IMG/VR virus record: IMGVR_UViG_3300023220_000152
Location: 1 to 41,802 of that record
Length of the DNA stretch: 41,802 bases
Source of the DNA: a virus
Reading direction: 5' to 3' (one strand)
Part shown: positions 1-41,802 of the stretch, in pieces
How positions within the stretch are numbered: the stretch's first letter is position 1
Layout of the letters: every line of letters begins with the position of its first letter
Program-made: the position numbers and the translations under genes
Notes under the pieces: model-generated
The model's input: the letters and a program-made list of their open reading frames with translations, nothing else
Databases searched by the model: none
Told to the model about the DNA's origin: nothing

Positions 1-144
1 AGGTATATTAAAATTGTAGAGTAATAGGCGTGTTGGAACGTCTTTAGAAAGCAAATCGGAATAGGGTTATTTAGTATGCGGTTCGGCGGGTTTTTCTATT
101 CCGAATTGCACCCCATTCCAACGGGCTGCATACTTAATAGCCCT
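1..144. repeat. Terminal direct repeat, left copy
   Basis: These 144 bases are identical to 41659-41802. This is the signature of a circular or circularly permuted genome whose assembly overlaps itself, or of a short direct terminal repeat on the virion DNA. The sequence alone cannot separate the two. The repeat contains most of the pseudoknot/terminator structure at 57-149, so joining the ends does not interrupt any recognised larger gene. Confidence 0.95.
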
Positions 145-149
145 TTTTT
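57..149 (+). terminator. Terminator-like structure with potential pseudoknot
   Basis: Positions 64-79 (GGGTTATTTAGTATGC) pair with 128-143 (GCATACTTAATAGCCC) over 16 positions, with one G-U pair and one mismatch. T144-T149 follow directly, as in an intrinsic terminator. The loop is unusually long. Positions 57-64 (CGGAATAG) are also perfectly complementary to 96-103 (CTATTCCG), which crosses the first helix and would make an H-type pseudoknot. Positions 32-38 (GTTGGAA) can pair with 116-122 (TTCCAAC). In a circular genome this lies just downstream of the rightward block ending near 41635, so ending that transcript is a likely role. The pseudoknot suggests an additional RNA function. Confidence 0.5.
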
Positions 150-227
150 GTGCCTGCTGGTTTTGGATCGTGACTACACAATCGGCCACAGGCACAACCT
201 TTCTAAAGACAAGCAGCCTGCAAATGT

Positions 228-343
228 ATGAATGTGGCGGAATTGGTAGACGCGCTCTCAGTAGGGTCGAGGATCTTGCAATAATCCAAGGCCTGAACAG
301 AGTGGTGAGCAAGCACCTTCCAGGTTCAAATCCTGGCATTCAT
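228..343 (+). tRNA. tRNA(Leu)-like element with oversized anticodon loop
   Basis: The parts of a class II tRNA are present in order. They are the acceptor 228-234/337-343 (ATGAATG/CATTCAT), a D arm beginning TGGCGGAATTGGTAGACGC as in bacterial leucine tRNAs, a type II variable arm 304-307/314-317 (GGTG/CACC), and a T arm 320-336 with a perfect 5-bp stem and loop TTCAAAT. The anticodon stem is CTCT 255-258 with AGAG 299-302, but its loop is 40 nt (259-298) instead of 7-9. It contains an inner GGAT/ATCC hairpin (271-274/284-287). The acceptor helix also continues outward to 18 bp, which would obstruct normal end processing. It may be an intron-bearing tRNA, a decayed tRNA, or a tRNA-like domain of the larger RNA. 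No CCA is encoded. Confidence 0.5.
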
Positions 344-362
344 ACATTTGCAGGTTGTCCAC

Positions 363-464
363 AGGTCGTATATGTGGGTGTGTTGGTGAACCCTAGTTTA
401 TGCTAGGCGTAAAGCAGCTTTAAGGTCTAAGGATCGCTGTCTAGCACCCCTTCATATACGGCCT
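363..464 (+). ncRNA. Structured RNA module, copy 1
   Basis: The outer helix is AGGTCGTATATG 363-374 with CATATACGGCCT 453-464 (12 bp, one G-U). An inner helix pairs GGGTGTGTTGG 376-386 (one bulged T) with CTAGCACCCC 441-450. The interior holds two small hairpins, CCTAG/CTAGG and GCAGC/GCTGT. The 3' strand CTAGCACCCCTTCATA is identical to that of the module at 657-783, while the outer helices differ in sequence but both pair fully. That compensating difference within one genome supports a conserved RNA fold. It has no T-arm-like sequence, so it is not a tRNA. Confidence 0.55.
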
Positions 465-615
465 GTACCACAGTCTAATTAGATGAGAGTAAAAGTTGGA
501 TTAAGGTAAATTGACCTCTATCCCAAGCTAACGCTCTAGCCGTGACCAACCTGATTCCGTCAATGTCTCAGGGGCAGACCGGCGAAATGAGCACTCTCTT
601 CTAATTAGATTGTAC
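465..615 (+). ncRNA. Long helix in the structured RNA region
   Basis: Positions 465-468 (GTAC), 474-483 (TCTAATTAGA) and 485-490 (GAGAGT) pair with 612-615, 600-609 and 593-598. The result is about 20 bp broken by small internal loops. The helix begins at the base directly after the preceding module ends, so the two could stack. The enclosed about 100 nt contain shorter complementary pieces, such as GTTGG near 496 with CCAAC near 546, and GCTA/TAGC. No coding potential is evident. The function is unknown. Confidence 0.45.
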
Positions 616-656
616 TCCACACTCCCGCCGTTTTAGTGCAGTCGTCAACGGCGTTT

Positions 657-783
657 AGAATGATTATGTGGTGGTGTTAGGTGAGCGGTGAGGGCCGCAA
701 TTAGCTAAAGGTTGGCCTCAAGTAGCTCATTCGAAGGGCTATTAGCTATCCCTATAAGCCTAGCACCCCTTCATAATCATTCT
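657..783 (+). ncRNA. Structured RNA module, copy 2
   Basis: The outer helix is AGAATGATTATG 657-668 with CATAATCATTCT 772-783, a perfect 12 bp. The inner helix is GGTGGTGTTAGG with CCTAGCACCCC 759-769, with one bulged T in the same place as in the module at 363-464. The last 16 nt of the 3' strand core match that copy exactly. The interior is longer (about 75 nt) and contains GCGG/CCGC and AGGG/CCCT hairpins. It is clearly the same kind of element, with a different insert between its arms. Confidence 0.55.
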
Positions 784-936
784 ATCCAACAAGACAGACC
801 CAACGCCAGGCCATGACCTAACCCCTGTCAACCTGGACACTTATTTGCCCCTTAAATGGGAGCTGACATCACTAATTGGCGGCACTGTAGCAATACAACT
901 GTAGCTGGTGATGTTTCCAAGGTAACACTTGGAGGG

Positions 937-994
937 TGTGGATAACCTATTCAATAAAGCCCTGTCCAATGTGGATATAGCAGGGTGTGGATAG
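937..994 (+). promoter_or_regulatory. Cluster of three DnaA-box-like sites
   Basis: TGTGGATAA at 937-945 is the exact reverse complement of the consensus DnaA box TTATCCACA. TGTGGATAT (970-978) and TGTGGATAG (986-994) each differ at the last position. All three share orientation and sit between the structured RNA and the first gene at 1024. The phage carries no recognisable initiator or helicase, so recruiting host DnaA here is plausible, either for replication initiation or for control of the early genes. I see no obvious AT-rich unwinding region next to the boxes, so an origin is only a hypothesis. Confidence 0.45.
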
Positions 995-1023
995 TGGGGT
1001 TCCTATGACTAAAGGATATAACT

Positions 1024-14280: not shown

Positions 14281-14291
14281 TAAAAGGTTTT

Positions 14292-14391
14292 ACAAGTGGA
14301 TGTGTTGGTACTGCGGCGCAAGCAGGCAGATCTGGAACATGATCGCGCACCCCAGGGCCGGTTCAATTCCGGGGCTAGCACATCTACCTAT
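14292..14391 (+). ncRNA. Structured RNA related to the left-end modules
   Basis: GTGGATGTG (14296-14304) pairs with CACATCTAC (14380-14388) over 9 positions with one G-U. Continuing inward, TTGG can pair with CTAG, giving the same GTGTTGG/CTAGCAC core seen at 363-464 and 657-783. Inside lie a CTGC/GCAG hairpin with a 7-base loop (14311-14325) and a T-arm-like GGTTCAATTCC with a 4-bp stem near 14358-14372. The element mixes tRNA-like and module-like traits and lies in the gap between the appendage genes and the terminase genes. Confidence 0.5.
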
Positions 14392-14401
14392 AGGACTTTA
14401 A

Positions 14402-41635: not shown

Positions 41636-41682
41636 AGAAAACACTTGCAATTAGAGGGAGGTATATTAAAATTGTAGAGTAA
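41632..41682 (+). CDS. Possible 16-aa peptide across the terminal repeat
   Basis: An ATG overlapping the previous stop (ATGA, 41632-41635) opens a 16-residue frame, MKKTLAIRGRYIKIVE, ending in the terminal repeat. The overlap suggests coupling, but the peptide is short and no other evidence supports it. Confidence 0.25.
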   Translation: MKKTLAIRGRYIKIVE

Positions 41683-41802
41683 TAGGCGTGTTGGAACGTC
41701 TTTAGAAAGCAAATCGGAATAGGGTTATTTAGTATGCGGTTCGGCGGGTTTTTCTATTCCGAATTGCACCCCATTCCAACGGGCTGCATACTTAATAGCC
41801 CT
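41659..41802. repeat. Terminal direct repeat, right copy
   Basis: It is identical to 1-144. If the molecule is circular, the genome is 41658 bases and this copy is an assembly overlap. Confidence 0.95.

Follow-up and report, generated by a model that had tools for sequence, protein, structure and literature searches.

A probable new family of large, modular structured phage RNAs with tRNA-like elements

Analysis of a viral record of 41,802 nt (IMG/VR IMGVR_UViG_3300023220_000152; the whole stretch is called the window here) pointed to a noncoding RNA of about 1 kb. Its transcription is predicted, and it most likely belongs to a new family of phage RNAs that are large, structured and modular. 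That the region is structured at the level of RNA and has family members in other phages is, in our judgement, very likely. The RNA is described from genome sequence and computation, through its structure, covariation, modularity, spread and tRNA-like content. Its carrier was likened to the P22-like podoviruses through its terminase, head-closure protein, NinG, NinB and Sak.

A preliminary description of the same DNA had placed a structured RNA at 217-933 and had listed long-range helices within it, including a perfect 18-bp pair and helices that abut one another. All of these helices were present on the plus strand, with the 18-bp pair found at 217-234/337-354 and the abutting helices borne out at 354/363 and 464/465. 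The plus strand of 217-933 had a folding energy of -276.8 kcal/mol, against a mean of -216.2 kcal/mol for 20 dinucleotide shuffles (z -8.7), and the minus strand gave a z of -6.2. The boundaries themselves proved too narrow, as a 5' leader (~21-149) and a 3' part reaching to ~1000 also belong to the RNA. The latter includes the helix 616-626/931-942, which passes the earlier limit, and the fuller region 21-1005 gave a plus-strand z of -11.9. When the genome was scanned in 83 segments of 300 nt, the most extreme z (-4.6) was that of the segment starting at base 1, against a median of -0.1; no other part of the genome is as structured as approximately 21-1000 on the plus strand. The features of the RNA are listed in Table 1. 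A coding signal across the region had been named as evidence that would speak against a structured RNA, and none was found when the overlapping ORFs were examined; PHROG gave no match for these ORFs. Rfam 15 gave no family match in the window at gathering scores, a permissive search (E up to 10) of 1-1100 returned chance matches only, and neither ARAGORN nor Rfam detected a tmRNA.

Table 1. Features of the predicted RNA and of the related lone unit, with fold z-scores for individual elements
Feature	Position	Strand	Fold z	Details
Sigma-70-like promoter (predicted)	41645..41672	+		TTGCAA-16-TAAAAT; 9/12 consensus matches; predicted start near base 21
5' leader	21..149	+	-3.6	Interlocked helices A 31-38/116-123, B 51-64/96-109, C 64-79/128-143
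Stem GUGCCUG/CAGGCAC	150..210	+		Pairs 150-156/189-195, enclosed by helix 40-51/199-210
tRNA-Leu-like element	217..354	+	-7.1	18-bp outer stem; tRNA body ~228-345
Arms of the tRNA-Leu-like element	within 217..354	+		D within 234-255; expanded anticodon arm 259-298; variable 304-317; T 320-336
B unit 1	363..464	+	-5.2	UAUGUGGGUGUGUUG ... UAGCACCCCUUCAUA; arms 363-386/441-464; CM R1 78.8 bits (own row in the model); covariation
A unit A1	472..611	+	-5.4	GAUGAGAGUAAA ... AGCACUCUCUUC; arms 472-495/589-611; covariation, 8 units
Junction strand and hairpin	616..652	+		Strand 616-626 (pairs with 931-942), hairpin 627-652; BLAST, MFE
B unit 2	657..783	+	-6.6	Arms 657-681/759-783; CM R1 79.4 bits (own row in the model); covariation
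3' domain	786..1000	+	-1.4	Closing strand 931-942; 3'-terminal hairpin ~946-994
Lone B-like unit	14285..14398	+	-3.7	Canonical T arm CCGGTTCAATTCCGG; CM R1 18.0 bits, E 0.016 (weak)

Bases 1-144 of the record recur as 41659-41802, leaving a unique length of 41,658 bp, and the genome seems to be complete and either circular or terminally redundant. Given this 144-bp terminal repeat, the position of the left end is arbitrary and the record contains two copies of the leader; the RNA, which had been assigned to the left end of the genome, thus lies merely at the cut point of the record. Owing to the same repeat, the -10 box of the predicted promoter is also found at 9-14. Shuffled sequences yield about one such promoter site per region, which makes it weak evidence taken alone; a TATAAT-like box was read by eye just upstream of most other leaders.

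Pattern and model scans of IMG/VR identified 13 further leaders in other phages, and 14 leaders, of three loose types, were taken out by eye from their T-run. In the window the leader ends in U6 at 144-149, followed by GUGCCUG, and the match of 40-51 with 199-210 is a perfect one of 12 bp. Because MAFFT introduced gaps when aligning the C-helix arms, the pairing of each arm with its own leader was compared with its pairing across leaders. The ungapped 14-nt arm before the T-run paired with its own leader at a mean of 13.2 of 14 positions, against 10.3 with other leaders, and 13 pairs were reached in 8 of 182 cross-leader comparisons. In every leader, helices of 6-13 bp join the bases before C to the loop of C and so cross C, with a different order of the inner strands in the type I leaders (L031, L182, L187 and L089). 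We read this as a conserved pseudoknotted domain, one that MFE folding, which excludes pseudoknots, is unable to draw. The crossing helices and U-run shared by the leaders of 14 phages, and the small ORFs that start at 1024, directly past the RNA, would also suit a 5' region that controls the downstream early genes in cis, in which pseudoknot and U-run act as an attenuator and everything else belongs to a long, structured untranslated stretch. However, such a reading leaves about 850 nt of modular units unexplained, and a search of 21 related records gave no homologue of the first downstream protein, so that no conserved target gene is apparent; we regard it as improbable.

The first big helix of the preliminary description (217-354) was found to be a tRNA-like element, which had gone unrecognised there. 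Its D arm (GTGGCGGAATTGGTAGACGCGC) and T arm (CCAGGTTCAAATCCTGG) resemble those of tRNA-Leu, and BLAST matched the element to tRNA-Leu genes. In place of the anticodon loop there is a 40-nt arm (259-298), and ARAGORN rejected the element as it stands and accepted it as a tRNA once this arm was exchanged for a 7-nt loop. ARAGORN labelled the edited element 'tRNA-Leu', a label that stems from the inserted loop and is uninformative; the Leu identity accordingly derives from BLAST and the long variable arm only. Of the traits of a type II tRNA, the D arm, T arm and acceptor stem were recovered through the edited ARAGORN test and BLAST, while a 7-nt anticodon loop was not found, neither ARAGORN nor Rfam finding a tRNA in the unedited element. 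Nor does it have an encoded or free CCA, its 3' end running on into the 18-bp stem (...CATTCATACATTTGCAGG). The setting had earlier been thought rich in tRNAs, which was not the case, ARAGORN detecting no tRNA in the whole window, though the region itself contains a tRNA body and its relatives embed real tRNAs. For 217-354 and several relatives, it is highly likely that tRNA bodies are part of the architecture of the RNA.

Two other identities considered for this element were not borne out. An intron-bearing tRNA was set aside, the 40-nt insert being too short for a group I intron and giving no Rfam intron match. For a bacterial Y RNA, Rfam gave only a match that fell on the variable and T arms and that, at 16 bits, stayed under the gathering score of 80. 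The Ro/Rsr (TROVE) domain PF05731 was absent from 15 records including the window, and a Y RNA system is thus not indicated within the phage; a host copy may exist.

Behind the tRNA-like element lie hairpin units of two kinds, A and B, which have conserved closing-helix motifs and an outer stem that is near-constant in length and free in sequence. Across the arms of 21 B units (24 pairs tested), 95.2% of cells were paired, against at most 53.5% in slid controls, a percentage that is partly selected given that the scanner required good outer pairing, whereas pair-type diversity is not. Twelve of these pairs were doubly changed, and the covariation score was 0.471, compared with 0.144 for column shuffles and at most 0.084 for slid versions. 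The double changes lay mostly in six columns just outside the conserved core (5-10), for example GGUG/CACC to GGAG/CUCC, the invariant core columns being uninformative for covariation. Outer-stem columns were aligned by their fixed distance from the motif, and the arms-only alignments were built by motif, a procedure that favours the motif columns and not the variable outer-stem columns in which most double changes fell. In the arms of eight A units all cells (100%) were paired, with 8 of 18 pairs changed on both sides, and slid versions reached at most 50%. Further compensatory changes were seen by eye in L209, which was found by the CM. A check for covariation among relatives had been named in the preliminary description; it was carried out, and covariation was strong.

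The block that includes 616-652 was about 90% identical to L008 by BLAST, and an 18-nt block common to the window and L008 was absent from all other viral contigs. Bases 932-1002 showed 86% identity to G017, with which they were also aligned; G017 has an A unit and the 3' domain in common with the window, and no leader of the window's type was found in it. A further B-like unit of the window stands by itself, shortly upstream of the terminase large-subunit gene (14285-14398).

Outside the window, pattern and model scans of IMG/VR identified about 20 B units and 7 A units in other phages. At the loci returned by a 15-base B motif search of IMG/VR, the outer stem paired at 7-8 of 8 positions despite differing sequence, and three repeats of this search on mononucleotide shuffles gave no such loci; more loci came from additional scans with exact patterns. 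A CM built from 12 B units placed a B unit in 18 of 48 viral records, including a terminase relative (G015) missed by the pattern; the records were partly picked for motif matches, and this proportion is therefore no estimate of frequency. Among the closest terminase relatives, B units were present in G002 and G015 only, most being without them, so that many phages can dispense with the RNA or have replaced it. No match to one exact B pattern (gap 60-90) was found in genome_contigs, and diverged prophage copies may exist. When the RNAs of five relatives were compared by BLAST with cultured phages, three gave tRNA-Leu fragments or short matches only and two gave nothing, and there was thus no cultured full-length homologue. 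Lone B units were found before genes in L049, L106 and L025, as at 14285 in the window, which means that not every unit depends on the full array; the flanks of the lone unit in L106 had no match among the relatives. At 2680-2850 in L106, a B unit is nested in a further stem (AGTCTGTATT/AATACAGATT), an outer stem otherwise typical of A units.

The same B unit occurs in L024 (5555-5756) and L049 (10168-10369), with 89% identity over about 200 nt that stops about at the unit ends and in different contexts, which suggests that units are exchanged between phages like cassettes. It could be argued from this pair, and from the lone units and the opposite-strand unit copies of L089, that A and B are non-autonomous, MITE-like mobile hairpins spreading between phages, the array being a pile-up of little function. 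The covarying stems with their G-U pairs and the retained tRNA elbows, however, indicate selection on RNA; no transposase or target duplication was identified; and the leader, where present, precedes the units on the same strand. We thus hold an array of mobile elements of this kind to be very unlikely.

Traces of tRNAs are seen in several genomes. Rfam called a tRNA above gathering in a 112-nt element inside an A unit (L187 2281-2392) and in a 125-nt element of L030 (8872-8996). The Leu-like body of L190 carries CCA; its anticodon arm is altered and an outer stem is present, and ARAGORN did not call its edited form. In G015, a tRNA-like stretch in which D- and T-arm sequences can be recognised lies inside a unit. 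Of 29 A and B units, 4 had a T arm with a standard loop, in all four cases 11-13 nt from the 3' arm, against a mean of 0.09 and a maximum of 2 in 500 shuffles; in the other 25 a canonical T arm was absent. At the site of the tRNA-like element, canonical tRNAs are found in L089 and in the Vibrio phages L033-L035; that of L089 (5682-5757, called tRNA-Met) takes the place of the window's stem 150-195. Some units thus appear plainly tRNA-derived, whereas for a tRNA origin of all of them we see the chances as even. From the minority of units with evident tRNA bodies or T arms, we infer that some, perhaps all, units arose through the capture of tRNAs, the elbow being retained and an anticodon arm able to decode being lost.

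The Vibrio breoganii phages 1.242.O, 1.110.O and 1.240.O have a homologous leader (76-80% identity by BLAST) and the same order of helices, followed by the tRNA site. In contrast to the window, this site holds a canonical tRNA-Arg or tRNA-Met instead of tRNA-like elements, and no A or B units were found in these three phages. Such a leader followed by one canonical tRNA, together with the long paired leader and trailer around the tRNA bodies of L190 and window 217-354, could point to a degenerate tRNA operon, in which leader and units would be elements for processing by RNase P, RNase E or RNase III or for stability, and the functional tRNAs would have been lost here. The A and B motifs, their compensatory changes and the near-constant outer stems in genomes without an ARAGORN tRNA argue instead for selection on the units, and an operon in decay seems to us a poor prospect. 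Most likely the tRNA bodies have lost decoding and are now structural or decoy modules.

Among known RNAs, the closest analogues are GOLLD and T4 RNAC. GOLLD is a phage-encoded, pseudoknotted RNA of more than 800 nt whose role is not known and whose linkers sometimes hold phage tRNAs, ROOL is a large phage and prophage RNA with multiple pseudoknots that lies near tRNA islands, and both form cages (PMC12286853), that of GOLLD being a 14-mer. There is a genuine resemblance in size and in embedded tRNAs: the RNA of the window shares with GOLLD its size, phage origin, pseudoknots and a tRNA at a linker-like site (L089, L033-L035), and is, like ROOL, a large phage RNA with pseudoknots. In contrast to GOLLD, however, its 5' leader is conserved and its hairpin units, strung in a row, are interchangeable, and it differs from ROOL in its architecture and in giving no Rfam match. 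Membership of either family was not supported, as neither CM matched at gathering or at E up to 10 on 1-1100, nor in the relatives. The earlier suggestion of a new or strongly diverged large structured RNA was thus upheld by the absence of an Rfam match and by covariation in relatives.

An assembly RNA of unrelated sequence could nevertheless be envisaged, expressed in lytic growth and self-assembling into a particle or cage with embedded tRNAs in the manner of GOLLD and ROOL. Its length of ~985 nt, phage origin, pseudoknots and tRNAs or tRNA-like elements in a linker position are in keeping with this, as are the cages and the tRNA-bearing GOLLD linkers mentioned above. The lack of a GOLLD or ROOL match in Rfam even under permissive settings speaks against it, and the variation in unit number and type among genomes is hard to square with one fixed cage; we consider this alternative unlikely.

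The species 1 and species 2 RNAs of T4 (RNAC and RNAD) are small stable RNAs of the T4 tRNA cluster, with roles that are not known (PMC3014915, PMC9697503). Near its 3' end RNAC (L191 909-1047, minus strand) contains CCGGGTTCGAATCCCGG, which reads as a perfect T arm, and the place of an anticodon arm is taken by a long one; the Rfam tRNA model does not call it, and RNAC may be the same sort of tRNA mimic. RNAC and RNAD are, however, single small RNAs without a leader pseudoknot, and any homology is putative. ICP1 produces an abundant noncoding transcript of ~800 nt, which its discoverers likened to GOLLD and ROOL (PMC7567579). It resembles the RNA of the window in size and phage origin and differs from it in lacking A and B units, no credible examples of which were found in the T4 and ICP1 regions, and in belonging to a phage without tRNA. 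The Bacillus cereus pseudo-tRNA tRNAOther is a tRNA-like RNA that takes no part in translation (PMC3399842), but is cellular, single and outside any large structured RNA. No description of the family was found among open PubMed Central papers, which is weak evidence of absence.

As to function, the RNA would be made from the sigma-70 promoter, and its leader, as a domain for folding or attenuation, would allow polymerase to read through the U-run. It would then accumulate and work in trans as a scaffold showing several tRNA elbows without anticodons, and these elbows would bind or titrate host tRNA-handling factors, whether RNase P, maturation enzymes, elongation factor or tRNA-directed defence nucleases. 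We infer in this way the transcription, accumulation, target and benefit of the RNA. Taken as a whole and averaged over its parts, the best explanation, a family of modular tRNA-mimic RNAs together with this mechanism, appears to us about as probable as its opposite. A platform of interchangeable cassettes, with tRNA bodies lacking a decoding arm set on handles behind a knotted leader, swapped between phages and occupying host tRNA-binding proteins or tRNA-directed defences, is put forward tentatively, and the step of acting in trans by binding tRNA-handling factors is, taken singly, rather doubtful. The readings discussed are not mutually exclusive, and the leader may act in cis and the array in trans.

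Large structured phage RNAs such as GOLLD, ROOL and T4 RNAC and RNAD count among the longest-standing puzzles of phage biology. The present family offers natural variation, in that at one site some phages have a canonical tRNA and others an anticodon-expanded mimic and that units are swapped, and the question of what phages do with non-decoding, tRNA-shaped RNAs thereby becomes testable. A reduced form is carried by a cultured pair, Vibrio breoganii and phage 1.242.O.

Several minor observations were made in the related phages. The int-alpA RNA (RF02996) was found above gathering at L188 1702-1768, on a phage contig that also has a B unit. In L187 (minus strand) and L034, a common hairpin (CGTGGCGATGCTGAACCTTGCATCCACG / CACGGCAATGCCTAACCTTGTATCCGTG) with a compensatory change lies 3' of the units and may represent a 3' domain of a second kind. 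Further hairpins, with AGTCTGTA...TACAGATT ends and no A or B cores, lie between the leader and the A and B units of L031 (minus strand) and L182, suggesting that there are more types of unit.
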